Source: Callaeas wilsoni | Lineage: Eukaryota > Chordata > Aves > Passeriformes > Callaeidae | Direction: 5' to 3' | DNA length: 64,000 nt | Assembly: GCA_013398955.1 (NCBI GenBank) | Contig: VWPU01011642.1 | Location: 62,001 to 126,000 of the forward strand | Shown here: in pieces, positions 9,879 to 32,212 of the stretch | How the letters are laid out: every line of letters starts with the position of its first letter | How positions within the stretch are numbered: the stretch's first letter is position 1 | The notes under the pieces: model-generated | Database searches by the model: none | Told to the model about the DNA's origin: nothing | Seen by the model: only the letters and a program-made list of their open reading frames with translations | Translations under genes and position numbers: made by a program

Positions 9879-11234
9879 GAGTCAAAGGTGGAGTGTACAC
9901 TTTGGAACTAACTTCAGGTGTGTTACTGAAAGCTTGAACTAAGTCTAATTAACGTTTTAGCTGTCGGCATTTCTATCACTTGGTCTGATCTAACAGCACT
10001 CCTTTTTCTAATCCTCTCAAAATAGGCTGTTTTAAAGGTTTACTCAGGCTGACACTTGGACCATGATGCTGAAGTACTGTTATTAAAAACAAAGCTATTT
10101 GGTGTTCATTAGCAGGGTGACAATTAGCTGCAAGACAAGTGTAGCTGGAATCACAGGACTCATGCCTCTGTACTAATTTTATTGGAAGCTCCTGAGGACA
10201 CCAAGGCATGGGCAGTGCTCACAGAGGAGGCAGAGTGGCTCCTCGGGCTCCCTGGGGCAGCCAGGAGGGCAAAATCCCGCAGATATCCCAGGGAAGCACC
10301 CTGCCTGCCTGGCAATTTCACTTGCACAACCACAGCCACTGTCCTCATTTTGTGGAACTTTCTCCCCAAAATGTTCTTCTTCCTTTCCCCCTCATCTTTT
10401 TCCTTTTCCTAGTGAGGCTCTGATGTATCTGAAGGGCTTCTGCTGTCTGGTTCTAAACCGAGTTAGCTCTATCAGATTTATTTTTGTCTGTCTGTGCCAC
10501 ACGAGGCTTGAATGGCTTTCTGAAATATCACTGTGGCAGACTTTGGGGATAACAATACTGATTTTGGTCTTCAACCAGCTGTCTTCTCAAACATAATCAA
10601 TGTCTTCTTTTCTCTCTCCACAGCAAGCAATAGTTAATTTATATTTGAACTTTTCCATCTTTGAGAACGTGTTTACCACCGCCTCCTTGAAGGACACTGG
10701 ATCTCATTTACTTGGACTTCCTCTGTTCTGCTCTCGCTCTGAAGAAAAGCCCTTTATGTTGATGTGACACTATAAAAATCCATAATCATAAAGTTAAAAA
10801 TAAACCCCTTGCTAGAATAAGATCAGCTGAATATACTTAATTTCTTTATTTGGGTCTGCCTTGTATTTTCACGTTTGACTTCAATTAAATTACTTTTCTT
10901 CAGCAATTCAGAGGCATTTCAGTAACCATGTGCCACTGAATATAAAAATCACATATTTATTGCACAGATAAGAGTGCACACCATCCCAGGGTGTCTCACT
11001 TCAAAGGTCTTATTCCAACACAACATGCTTTTTATCGCTCAGGAACTGCCGCTGAGGGCCCATTAAACCCCAGATCGTGCTGCTCCTGCCTGTGAGTGCT
11101 CTCTGGGCACAGGAGCAGCACTGGGGATGGGGGGGCCCTTCAGCTCGCACATTGTCACAGGGGTGCTGTGCTTGCGAGGGGCTGAGCACAGCACTGCCCA
11201 GCTCACAGCTGCTCACCTGCAGAAATACCACACT
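9875..11234. other. Unassigned non-coding DNA upstream of the tRNA/LTR chimera
   Basis: No gene is recognised. A pyrimidine-rich patch lies near 10375-10412, and an AT-rich segment at 10760-10980. The last part (11077-11234) is GC-richer and forms the host flank next to the retroviral insertion described below. Confidence 0.5.
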
Positions 11235-11264
11235 GCCTGCTGCTTTACTCTGGCTTGGCCTGTC
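11235..11264. repeat. 30-bp direct repeat, distal copy (extra U5 piece)
   Basis: The 30 bases beginning GCCTGCTGCTTTACTCTGGC match 11343-11372, inside the LTR U5, at 29 of 30 positions (one A/G difference). The copy abuts and overlaps the 5' end of the tRNA-like sequence, so the first seven bases of the 'tRNA' (GCCTGTC) are supplied by this repeat and not by a faithful tRNA acceptor. The host flank to its left does not continue the LTR. Confidence 0.9.
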
Positions 11265-11328
11265 TAGCTCAGTCGGTAGAGCATGAGATTTAATCTCAGG
11301 GTCGCGGGTTCAAGCCTCACGTTGGGCG
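11258..11328 (+). pseudogene. tRNA-Lys(CUU)-derived sequence (retro-copied, not a functional tRNA)
   Basis: The 71 bases follow vertebrate tRNA-Lys(CUU) from acceptor to discriminator G: the D-arm string TAGCTCAGTCGGTAGAGC, anticodon stem TGAGA/TCTCA (11284-11288 and 11294-11298), T-arm GGGTTCAAGCC, and 3' end GTTGGGCG. Defects are clear. The anticodon loop is 5 nt instead of 7 because two bases are missing, so the CUU anticodon is lost. The T stem carries a mismatch. The acceptor start GCCTGTC differs from the expected GCCCGGC and matches the neighbouring U5 repeat. CCA follows directly (11329-11331), which vertebrate nuclear tRNA genes do not encode. Together with the adjoining LTR, this shows it is a DNA copy of a mature primer tRNA. 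A- and B-box-like strings remain, but a working tRNA is not expected. Confidence 0.85.
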
Positions 11329-11331
11329 CCA
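11314..11331 (-). other. tRNA-Lys primer-binding site
   Basis: On the minus strand the 18 bases TGGCGCCCAACGTGAGGC are complementary to the 3' end of tRNA-Lys(1,2), CCA included. One base differs from the usual ...CGTGGGGC. It lies two bases after the LTR terminus (…GGCA-AG-TGG), the spacing expected for a retroviral primer-binding site. Lysine primers are typical of betaretrovirus-like (class II) ERVs, among others. Confidence 0.85.
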
Positions 11332-11333
11332 CT

Positions 11334-11910
11334 TGCCGCGCGGCCTGCTGCTTTGCTCTGGCTTGGCCTGTCGACCCCGGCAGCCACCCTCACAGGACAG
11401 CGGTGTCTGGCCCAGACAGGGTCACTTCTGGCCCGAAGCCGTTTGCAACTAGCAGTCTCTGGGCTTTAGTTCGGCAGGAGCAAAGACAAGGAGGAAAGAG
11501 TTGGAATTTCTGTAGCTTTATTCCAAGTTTATTTTCTTGAAGGGGAGCTCACAGCAAGACTCCTGAACTCTTTGGTTACATGTTTTTATAGGGTTACAAA
11601 GTGAGAGAGGTATAACAGAGACAGCCAATCCAAAGGTGACACGCGTGACACAGAACTAATAGAAACATCTCAGGGGAGGAACTTAGCCTAAGTTACAAAT
11701 GGTAATACAGCTAAAGATAATCTTGAAACACCCTGTCCTGTGAGAGGCCTGAATCTCTGAAACAAAGAGAGGAGGCAGGCACAGGTGACCTCAGGGGTTA
11801 AGAACTTAAATGCTGTGGACTCTTCTTTGAACCTATCCTCTGAGGCAGAGTCTGGTGCAGTGAAATGAACCCATTCTGTATCGCCCAAGAGAGTCTGGGT
11901 CACTGCAACA
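11334..11910 (-). mobile_element. ERV LTR with lysine primer site, minus strand
   Basis: This is about 577 bp, with terminal TGTTGCAG (complement of 11903-11910) and …GGCA (complement of 11334-11337). U3 contains an inverted CCAAT box near 11625-11629. A TATA box (TATAAAAA, complement of 11583-11590) is followed by two AATAAA signals (complements of 11528-11533 and 11517-11522), and then about 180 bp of R/U5. Signal order and spacing are those of an LTR, and the primer-binding site follows immediately. The U3 edge at 11910 is the best TG start, but neighbouring CA dinucleotides at 11913 and 11920 cannot be excluded. No target duplication could be matched across the whole insertion. Open frames inside (for example 11688-11921 minus) are not viral genes. 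Confidence 0.8.
11517..11590 (-). promoter_or_regulatory. LTR core promoter and poly(A) signals
   Basis: On the minus strand TATAAAAA (11590 to 11583) is followed 50-70 bases later by AATAAA (11533 to 11528) and a second AATAAA (11522 to 11517). The R/U5 border should lie some 15-25 bases beyond these, around 11495-11505. This arrangement places both RNA initiation and RNA 3'-end formation within one LTR. Confidence 0.75.
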
Positions 11911-14900
11911 CAGAAACACAAATTGTTGTGCTGTTGGGACAGGGACTGGGGCTGGGCTGACTGCAGAGCCCTTCAGCCACCCTGCTACAGACAGGTGTGG
12001 AAAACAGAGCCAAGGTCACCTGGCCCCAGTGTGCGTGAACATCAACCAGCAGCATCTGAACATCCCCCTCACTGCAGGGGTGAGAGATCAGAGCTCCCTG
12101 CACGTTTCCTGGCTTTTTCTACAGCACCCACTGATCCTGAGGAAGCGCTTGACAGATAAGAGGAAGGGATGGAGAACACGTAGTAGAATTCTTCGCCCAG
12201 AGTATTTATTACAATCTTGAGTCATCTGCCACGGTCGAGAGTTGGATTCTCCGATAATTTCACACTACATAAAAATCGAATCTGTGATAATTTAGGTAGG
12301 CTATCAAGTACTGCTGATCTCGACCATAAACAAAGCAAAACCAGTAATTGCTTTTACTGAAAAATTATGTGTGTTTTAGGGTTTTAACACTGGGCTATCC
12401 CAGGGGAAGGAGAAGAAGATTGGAAAGCGGTGGTTTCAACAAACATGAAATTGCACAAAAAGTAGCAAAAATTAGATGACACTGAATTTCCACACATAAA
12501 AGCAAATAAAAATGCTGTAATACTGGCTTCTTCAATTTAATCCAGTCAGCTTTGAGACTTCCATTTGTTTTGGCATGAAAAATATCAATTTGTCACAATG
12601 CTGAGTTTGCAATTACTTCACTGTGTCACCATTAGTAAGAAAAAGCTATTGATTTAAACAATGCACACATAAACATGGCTTTCAAACCACAATTCCGATT
12701 TTTCTTAAAGCTTTTCCTATTAATTACTAGAATTCATCAGCATGACAGCAAAAACCCCCAAACACAGAGGGTTAAATCTCACAGCCCTTGCTGGCAGTGC
12801 CCATGCGTGAACACCGCATTTGTGGCCGTATTTTCTGTGAGCGAGGAAAAAATAATGATTTTATGGCAACAAAAGCTTTCCCTTCCTGCAGCTCACAAGC
12901 TGCATGGCAGCTCCTGGCAGCCTGCCCTCAGAAGTGTTGCAAAATTTAATATTAAGGCTCACGGACTTCTGCAACTTCAGGAGTTAACTCTATAGCTAAG
13001 GTCAGGAAGGTGAGCAGAGGCCTCCAACTAAACTTATTGGATTCAAAGACCTTAAATCTTTTTAGAATTTAAAATATGAAACTTCTCTCCCTATACTGCC
13101 AGAGAGTTTTATTCCCTCCTCTTTGCTGCTTCACAGTCTTACAATTGAGTGCCAGTAATTCCTAAAAGAATTTCAGGGTTATCACACAGGATTTCTACTT
13201 CTACATTTAAAATATTCCATAAACTGCAAAAGGCAGGCCTGGGGCTTGGTGACGCAAAAAATGCTCCCACTAAAATTACCAGAGTGATAGACTTGGCAAT
13301 AGATTGACAGACTGAGCATCCTCAAGGCAAGGAGCAGGGAGGCTGTGACTCCTCCGTGCCTCTCCAGGGCTGCAGAGCCACCACTCCGCTCATGGGGAGC
13401 TCACCTTGAGCCCCACTGCAGTTCAGACTATAAAGCACCCATTATCCTCGCCTGGTGCACATATAGCTTTTCTTTAATTGACACAGATGCCATTTCCTAT
13501 TATAAATAATTTGTTCCACAAATAGACATTTTCAGGAACAACATCTGTGCCTGTGCTTAATTTGCAGCATGCTGATTGTCTTACAGGAGTCAATGGGAGA
13601 GGTCACACAAGTTAAACGAGTTCTGAGAACTGAACTTTGTGGGACTGGGGGGCTTTGTTTGCATTTTGCTTTTGTTTTGCCTTTGCCCGTCGTGGATTTT
13701 GTGCTTGTTCAGTGTCACAACTCCCGTGGGGTGTGTGGGAGTTATTTAGAGGTGATATTGGAAACACCAGCCTTTGTATTTCAGCTGTTGGTTTAACATG
13801 AAAGGCAGTCGTAAACATCTTCTAAATCATTTCAGACAGATTTGGAAGCAGTTTTTTGAAAGCCCATTTTTAGGAGCATTGCCTTTAACTGTCCCATGCT
13901 GCTGGTGCCGGTCTCCATGCCTTCATCAGGGTTCATCCTGCTGAGCCCCAGGCAGGGCTGAACCTCCACCCAGCAAACATCCACTCCCCTGCTGTCAGAG
14001 GGGCGGTGTGTGGCGTGGCTTTGTACACCCAACCTCAGCAACACACAGAAAAGGTTTCTGCTGGCAAGCATGAAAGGTGAGAGGTCTCCAGTGTCTCAAG
14101 GGTCTATTGCTGCTGGCGTACAGCAAACAGTAGATACCAAACTGCCCCCAGGAAAATTCGTATACGTGTAAGATGAGGAGATTTGACAAAAAATTCCTTC
14201 CTCCTTTTCCATTTTTCTGCACACCTATAATCTATAAATTCATGTCCTGTATACACCTGATAGATTGCAGCCCTGTTGATACGCTGCACTAACAAATAAA
14301 CGGTTTTTATTAATGGGACTATAAATCACATGCTCAACCCCTGTGGAGCTAATTGTCCTGCTTTACATGCTACCTGCAACACCATCACTGCCAGTGCAGT
14401 GGAACATGGCATTCCCTGTTGTACCCAGCCAAAAAACCAGAGGGGTGTGGCTGCTCCAGCCATCCAGCAGTGGCTGCCCCTGCAGGCATGAACGAAGGGA
14501 AACTTCTTGCAGCACCACAGCTGTGTGAGAGAGGATCCTGACAGAAAAATGAATGTATTCAGGTCTTTATTTCTAGTTAATTTACTGCTATATGGAAAAC
14601 TGAATGCTAACTGAGCTGCTATGTCTGGGCTTTCATTTCTTTTATCCCCATGAAGGATCGGGCAGCAGGTTTTCCCACCCCACCAAGGGATGCCATTGCA
14701 GCCGAGCTCCATCATTCAGCCCATCCACAATTTGCAGCTTCTCTGATACAAGCCCAGCAGCTTGGCATGTAGCTGCAGGCTGCCGGAGCCCGGCGATGAT
14801 CAGCTGAGGTACTGAATAGAATCATTTCCTCTTCGTGCTGTGAAACTCTTCCAGGCATTCCTTCAGCACCACCTTCCTTGTGCTAAGGCTTAGCTCAGGC

Positions 14901-31877: not shown

Positions 31878-32212
31878 GTTGGTAGAAAACATGTCAGACT
31901 GCTGAAAAACAGAAAATGTTCAATATCATCATATGAAGTCAGAAACAAACACAGCAAAACCAAATAAATCTAATAAAAATACTGTCTGTTGGAAGAAAAC
32001 ATGTCAGACTGCTGAAAAACAGAAAATGTTCAATATCATCATATGAAGTCAGAAACAAACACAGCAAAACCAAATAAATCTAATAAAAATACTGTCTGTT
32101 GGAAGAAAACATGTCAGACTGCTGAAAAACAGAAAATGTTCAATATCATCATATGAAGTCAGAAACAAACACAGCAAAACCAAACAAATCTAATAAAAAT
32201 ACTGTCTCTTGG
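31878..32212. repeat. 110-bp tandem repeat, three copies
   Basis: Three head-to-tail units with an exact 110-base period begin at about 31881, 31991 and 32101. Copies 1 and 2 are almost identical; copy 3 differs by a T-to-C change (CAAATAAATC to CAAACAAATC) and by divergence at its end (CTGTCTCTTGG). The unit is AT-rich, is not a multiple of three, and has no coding potential. It is not CRISPR-like, because there are no spacers. The near identity suggests a recent duplication, or possibly an assembly artefact. Confidence 0.95.

Follow-up and report, generated by a model that had tools for sequence, protein, structure and literature searches.

A primer tRNA-Lys copied between two U5 ends of one LTR unit in Callaeas wilsoni, probably an LTR-only product of aberrant reverse transcription

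The window analysed here is a stretch of 64,000 nt from the genome of the bird Callaeas wilsoni. On its minus strand, from 11910 to 11226, lies a single integrated unit of 685 nt that starts with TG, ends with TA (from CA) and consists, in this order, of a 577-nt LTR, the dinucleotide AG, an 18-nt lysine primer-binding site, the complement of tRNA-Lys(CUU) and a second, 39-nt copy of the U5 end (Table 1). Judged by motif only, U3, R and U5 stand in order in the LTR: TATAAA (from 11590), which we take to be the probable promoter element of U3, is followed by AATAAA (from 11533 and again from 11522), presumably the polyadenylation signal, and then by U5. The unit has the ends of an integrated LTR, i.e. 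TG...TA termini that are common to its family and that are flanked by a perfect 6-bp duplication; the chance of a match of CA plus a 6-mer at such a distance, estimated empirically, is 2.4% (1424/59000). The locus has no internal viral region, and no second LTR was detected within the window. At 31878-32212 the window also contains a 110-bp unit in three tandem copies that match at 98%.

Table 1. Features of the integrated unit and its flanks, in minus-strand order (positions in the window)
Feature	Position	Strand	Remark
Target-site duplication CAGAAA, upstream side	11911..11916	.	identical to 11220-11225; abuts TG
LTR, 577 nt, TGTTGCAG...GCGCGGCA	11334..11910	-	ends match those of family relatives; TATAAA and AATAAA in order
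TATAAA, U3	11585..11590	-	motif only
AATAAA	11528..11533	-	motif only; second AATAAA at 11517-11522
U5 end, copy A, 39 nt, ends CA	11334..11372	-	34/39 identical to copy B
2-nt gap AG, U5 to primer site	11332..11333	-	same AG before TGGCGC in L005
18-nt primer-binding site, tRNA-Lys(CUU)	11314..11331	-	1 mismatch in 18
tRNA-Lys(CUU) copy, nt 8 to CCA end	11265..11331	+	nt 7 shared with U5 at 11264; anticodon loop lacks 2 nt
Encoded CCA	11329..11331	+	CCA in 0/30 fetched ordinary tRNA loci
U5 end, copy B, 39 nt, ends TA (from CA)	11226..11264	-	compare family end G[CT]GCGGCA
Target-site duplication CAGAAA, downstream side	11220..11225	.	directly outside element end 11226

Past the primer-binding site, complementarity to tRNA-Lys(CUU) continues for a further 49 nt (11313-11265); it passes nt 59 of the tRNA, the position of the 18-nt stop, and reaches nt 7 or 8. 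Aligned to human tRNA-Lys(CTT), taken from PMC8216282 with CCA appended, the copy matches in 69 of 76 alignment columns with a local alignment score of 113 (elsewhere in the window the score does not exceed 22, and in 20 shuffled sequences it does not exceed 29), and the Rfam tRNA model matches 11258-11328 with 41.9 bits (E 1.7e-5). On the basis of these values a chance match was rejected. A sequence-only reading of this locus had claimed that a whole primer tRNA-Lys, reverse transcribed, lies next to its own LTR behind the normal 2-nt gap and lysine primer site, with its CCA encoded and 2 nt of the anticodon loop deleted, and had called for a covariance-model check. The check, reported above, and the alignment support the join at U5-AG-TGG with an encoded CCA and tRNA body; the gap and the primer site are as claimed except for the single mismatch, and the anticodon loop is indeed reduced to 5 nt. 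The word 'whole' holds for the T, variable, anticodon and D arms and fails for the 5' end. On the plus strand 11258-11264 reads GCCTGTC, which is the U5 sequence found at 11366-11372, whereas the start of the tRNA would be GCCCGGC; at the mismatches C4T and G6T the base is precisely that of U5 copy A, and the first 6-7 nt are therefore U5 and not tRNA. Given that the second U5 copy fills 11226-11264, tRNA nt 1-6 or 1-7 are absent as tRNA sequence. Similarly, the junction of the tRNA with U5 is real, but the tRNA is not beside the LTR unit; rather, the integrated unit encloses it, with a U5 end on either side. This U5-tRNA-U5 order is also not the U5-tRNA-U3 order of the Colicelli-Goff type of circle.

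The anticipated miscall by tRNA annotation does occur: ARAGORN reports a tRNA at 11258-11331 on the plus strand with the anticodon 'tta' (stop). With its 5-nt loop, mismatched acceptor stem and encoded CCA, the copy lacks the features of a functional tRNA gene. None of 30 loci fetched from 50 Rfam tRNA matches in the same genome has CCA after the tRNA; thus, ordinary tRNA genes here do not encode CCA and the copy is unlike them, as the sequence-only reading had argued. The encoded CCA, the loop of 5 nt and the target duplication around the whole unit led us to reject a tRNA gene beside an LTR. Folding the copy as RNA was uninformative (z 0.42).

Relatives of the LTR were sought in the assembly that contains the window (G000; 1.003 Gb, 12,470 contigs) using 11235-11376 as the family query. 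Among the 40 of 160 candidates that were scored and matched, only the window covers the full U5-tRNA-U5 query, and 31 are other matches to the U5 of the window family, all of which were read. This search for LTRs with the same U5, proposed in the sequence-only reading, returned no relative with tRNA beyond 6 nt (0/31, from 40 of 160 candidates scored), and in 29 of the 31 the U5 end is followed directly by DNA other than a primer site. In L005 (G000:C1289, locus 1214-2097) U5 is followed by AG and 6 nt of primer site (U5-AG-TGGCGC) and then by its own U3 in inverted orientation, i.e. a fold-back without tRNA read-through, with a target duplication, read at the two U3 ends, that agrees at 5/6 positions (CAAATA / CCAATA). 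In L007 (G000:C1897) U5 is followed by AGTAGCG, which is AG plus approximately 5 nt resembling the start of a primer site, and there is no matching target duplication. Target duplications are perfect over 6 bp in 22 of 29 scorable window-family LTRs, agree at 5/6 in three and at 4/6 in one, and agree at 0-2/6 in three (L066, L007 and L005), two partial copies (L058 and L082) having been dropped. Because the relatives share LTR ends and 6-bp duplications, the ends and the duplication in the window are those of its family. Among the copies read, no window-family member with an ordinary proviral leader was found, and the tRNA queries, with all 12 and all 14 of their first-look candidates scored, gave no second copy of the window junction.

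The join itself is not unique. With human tRNA-Lys(CTT) plus CCA as query, 14 matches were obtained from 14 candidates, all of them scored, and at least 10 of the 14 are U5-spacer-tRNA joins (the window, L003, L006, L008, L009, L013, L014, L015, L018 and L104); these counts are lower bounds. The join that the sequence-only reading had noticed is one of at least ten in the same genome. The joins involve the window's family, a second LTR family (L006, L008, L014, L015, the more diverged L018 and, by its U5 as read, L104) and three further U5 types (L003, L009 and L013). CCA is present in nine of the ten and decayed in L015. Of the ten copies, L006, L008 and L014 are called tRNA-Lys(CTT) by ARAGORN. 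The remaining matches are an ordinary tRNA-Lys(TTT) gene (L017), a copy of tRNA nt 1-71 without CCA at 99% identity that is separated by 107 nt from a second-family LTR fragment, the initial 111 nt of the LTR (L004), a copy of tRNA nt 6-72 (L105) and a locus at which no second-family LTR was seen (L016). Among the 14 query matches there is no clear ordinary tRNA-Lys(CTT) gene, L004 being the closest; the real genes may be missing from the assembly or may have been skipped by the first look. Scanning viral contigs with GACAGGCCAAGCCAGAG gave one locus (L001) with a match of 17-18 nt and nothing else significant in common, and neither scans of viral contigs with two other patterns nor one prokaryote-genome scan gave a match.

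The joins differ in how far the tRNA was copied and in what follows. In L008, L009 and L014 the tRNA extends to nt 1 and is followed by other DNA, the first few hundred nt of which do not match the loci fetched by then. Where read-through was partial, it ended within the anticodon loop or at its edge (L018, G000:C1326; L104, G000:C3742) or in the D arm (L003 and L013); the anticodon loop and the D arm are modified regions in tRNA. In L003 (G000:C6729, virus sense 998-1693) a 454-nt insert consisting of LTR, AAG, tRNA to nt 13 and 5 nt lies between 121-bp host direct repeats that are identical at 120 of 121 positions, which is not an integrase-type junction. In L006, L008, L014 and L015 a search immediately at the tRNA end gave no duplication of at least 5 nt; when duplications were searched further on in L006, L008, L013, L014 and L015, perfect ones at integrase-type ends were found only in L006 and L015. 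The seven joins other than the window, L006 and L015 may have had their right end joined by repair rather than by integrase.

The second family is large (1582 first-look candidates, 40 of which were scored) and allows the normal leader to be compared with the tRNA joins. Nine of the 40 scored matches, L008, L014 and seven more, all read, reach the primer site within query positions 1-8. In five of the seven (L087-L090 and L092) the primer site leads into one common leader, in L090 for about 35 nt, while L093 follows the primer site for 12 nt and L091 lacks a clear one. The ordinary leader in these five copies means that the tRNA is not the normal leader of the second family, and we rejected a normal tRNA-like leader for this family; the finding that the sequence-only reading had named as fatal to its claim, a tRNA-like leader carried as a rule by related proviruses, was not made here. 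Five solo LTRs of the second family, both ends of which were inspected by eye, have 5-bp duplications, two perfect and three agreeing at 4/5.

Two second-family joins have integrase-type ends. L006 (also L050; G000:C4873, virus sense 827-1943) consists of LTR, spacer, tRNA and LTR positions 378-1 in inverted orientation at 97% identity, and is thus a palindromic LTR with U3 ends on both sides, flanked by a perfect 5-bp duplication (GAGTC). At the turning point the LTR contains GCCCGGC, a 7-nt match to tRNA nt 1-7, as expected if DNA with a tRNA-derived 3' end folded back and was extended on its own LTR; since LTR and tRNA are similar over tRNA nt 1-15, the exit from the tRNA could have been at nt 1 or anywhere over nt 1-15. 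L015 follows a plan similar to that of the unit in the window: LTR, spacer, tRNA to nt 1, 49 nt and finally 27 nt that agree with the U5 end at 89%. It is flanked on either side by CATAG, and its left end is now TA. The tRNA copies have A29/T41 in L006 and G29/C41 in L008 and L014, both arm types also being printed for human tRNA-Lys(CTT), so that the copies within the second family derive from at least two kinds of tRNA.

Combining the architecture of the window with the data on its relatives and on the other joins, we consider it highly probable that the unit is an LTR-only retroviral insertion that arose through aberrant reverse transcription, in which read-through of the primer, a failed transfer and re-priming on U5 were followed by integration. 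Normal plus-strand strong-stop DNA ends after 18 nt of the tRNA because of m1A58. We suggest that (i) reverse transcriptase, while copying U3-R-U5 and the attached primer at the stage of plus-strand strong-stop synthesis, passed tRNA position 58 and would have gone on to copy the T, variable, anticodon and D arms, as far as nt 7 or the 5' end of the tRNA, (ii) the 3' end of a DNA strand ending in tRNA would have remained unpaired in the normal second strand transfer and so would not have been extended, (iii) this end may have re-annealed to U5, where the tRNA end GCCGGGC and the U5 sequence GACAGGC agree at 5/7 positions in register with the last three identical, (iv) the last 39 nt of U5 would then have been copied again, restoring the normal terminus, and (v) integrase would have inserted the unit with a 6-bp target duplication. 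In this scheme the internal region of the virus would never have been part of the integrated unit. In favor of this scheme, both U5 copies belong to a single element, which has TG...TA termini and is flanked by a perfect duplication of 6 bp. L006 would have taken a fold-back route onto its own LTR and the window and L015 a route in which U5 was re-copied; both routes would restore termini usable by integrase, and the duplications of the window, L006 and L015 have the size of those of their families. Passage of position 58 might reflect a primer without the methyl group at A58. This position is an unchanged A in nine of the ten joins and G in L009, which fits an unmethylated primer but does not prove it; with such a primer there would be no misreading signature by which the bypass could be proved.

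Several observations count against this scheme. If the tRNA copy stopped at nt 7, the template switch is left with 1 nt of exact microhomology, and if it was copied to nt 1, two mismatches must be resolved toward U5. The five differences between U5 copies A and B are unevenly distributed, three or four lying in B and one in A when compared with family copies. Of the ten joins, only those of the window, L006 and L015 are fully covered by the scheme, and within L015 the stretch of 49 nt separating the tRNA from the second U5 is unexplained; moreover, L003 lies between host repeats and L008, L013 and L014 have no convincing duplication. For these joins as a group, we offer with some reserve, and leaning slightly against it, the generalization that primer-tRNA read-through is a recurrent side-exit of reverse transcription in which the stalled strong-stop DNA re-primes on U5 (the window and L015) or on its own LTR (L006) and integrates as LTR only.

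Alternatively, the tRNA could have stayed attached to the right end of a linear viral DNA of full length and been copied there, with a U5 end added by template switch or end joining, the complete provirus integrated and its LTRs recombined later; a model with the tRNA at the right end is attributed to Colicelli and Goff. This alternative would give the same sequence and differs from the preferred scheme only in whether a provirus ever existed, and the confidence placed in the two therefore overlaps. We regard it as rather unlikely, yet as the most serious of the alternatives. In its favor, solo LTRs usually arise by LTR-LTR recombination, and birds form them at high frequency (PMC11009239); moreover, a crossover upstream of the insert would keep the insert if this lay in the 3' LTR, and proviral remains of the second family are present. 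However, the window contains no second LTR and no second full copy was seen in the 10-kb stretches L050-L056, and the inverted LTR end of L006 is more simply explained if only one LTR was involved. A different possibility is that the tRNA insert was part of U5 in a replicating viral lineage and was inherited by many copies. A new round of replication would copy a U5 insert into both LTRs, and the 40 candidates scored are only a quarter of the 160 found; against this, the insert occurs in none of the 31 other family LTRs among those scored, the tRNA queries with all candidates scored gave no second copy of the window junction, and the second-family joins differ in their right flanks and in arm type (L006 versus L008 and L014). 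This lineage explanation is disfavored and appears very improbable.

Still less credible are the two remaining explanations. Insertion of processed RNAs with direct repeats is known, and a mature tRNA could have been retroposed by a LINE into an existing LTR with the U5 repeat as target duplication, or a tRNA gene could lie beside the LTR; indeed, the internal promoter boxes look largely present. But retroposition demands that the repeat end exactly at the LTR end, that the insert begin with the AG that separates U5 from the primer site and that the tRNA sit in the exact primer orientation, and either version is at odds with the U5-tRNA arrangement in 10 of 14 matches and with an outer 6-bp duplication that encloses the whole unit; we give it hardly any weight. 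An artefact of assembly or library construction could be entertained for an assembly as fragmented as this one (12,470 contigs for 1.0 Gb), yet in the window, L006 and L015 the target duplications fit at the outer ends, mutations differ among the copies and the join recurs at ten loci in several LTR groups, all of which makes an artefact extremely unlikely.

The joins suggest a second route to solo LTRs. If the generalization of a recurrent side-exit is true, some 'solo LTRs' never were proviruses, and a copied tRNA marks such an origin. Transposable elements reportedly multiplied tRNA genes, as a bird tRNA-gene paper of 2021 by Ottenburghs is said to state. The joins described here explain some false tRNA-Lys calls, i.e. 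those made by ARAGORN at L006, L008 and L014.

Our literature search, which covered accessible parts of the sources, found no report of full primer tRNAs in endogenous LTRs, although they may have been noticed before. Judged by those parts, related products are known from viral DNA. Colicelli and Goff (1986), as described in PMC12220202, found tRNA-Gly in a murine leukaemia virus circle with 4 nt missing, and 2-LTR junctions with tRNA primer sequence are mentioned in PMC5618025. The circle resembles the unit described here in that a primer tRNA was copied next to an LTR and lacks 5' nucleotides, 4 there and 6-7 here. It was, however, unintegrated and made from a spurious non-cognate primer, whereas the present unit belongs to a genome assembly and has a cognate lysine primer, a second U5 end and a target duplication. 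PMC12220202 itself describes reverse-transcribed tRNA-Gly with CCA beside an integrated HIV provirus, with 5 nt of the 5' end missing. As in the present unit, viral DNA is integrated and its 3' end is joined to the CCA side of a tRNA that lacks 5' nucleotides; in the HIV case, however, the tRNA is non-cognate, lies outside the provirus and was linked by the authors to a deletion in proviral DNA, whereas here the unit encloses the tRNA and seems to have been integrated normally.

A parallel of another kind is the hairpin-induced tRNA-mediated recombination in HIV-1 of Konstantinova (2006; as described in PMC12220202), in which 63-65 nt of tRNA likewise entered viral genomes, in that case by non-homologous recombination; there the tRNAs were non-primer tRNAs (Asp and Glu) and the hairpin was placed in the nef region by the experimenters. 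Comparable with the proposed first step is the extension of plus-strand strong-stop DNA past A58 and the over-extension of the primer reported in PMC13191261, which cites Fukuda 2021 and Muthuswami 2002. In those products, too, reverse transcriptase passes the methylated A58, but they were obtained in assays or from infected cells, whereas the insertions described here are heritable and reach the 5' end of the tRNA or nearly so. In total, the precedents in these sources consist of one viral circle, one cultured infected cell clone and assay products, and the ten joins in one assembly provide a countable record of how often the A58 stop is bypassed, of other stops in the tRNA and of the next step taken by the strand.
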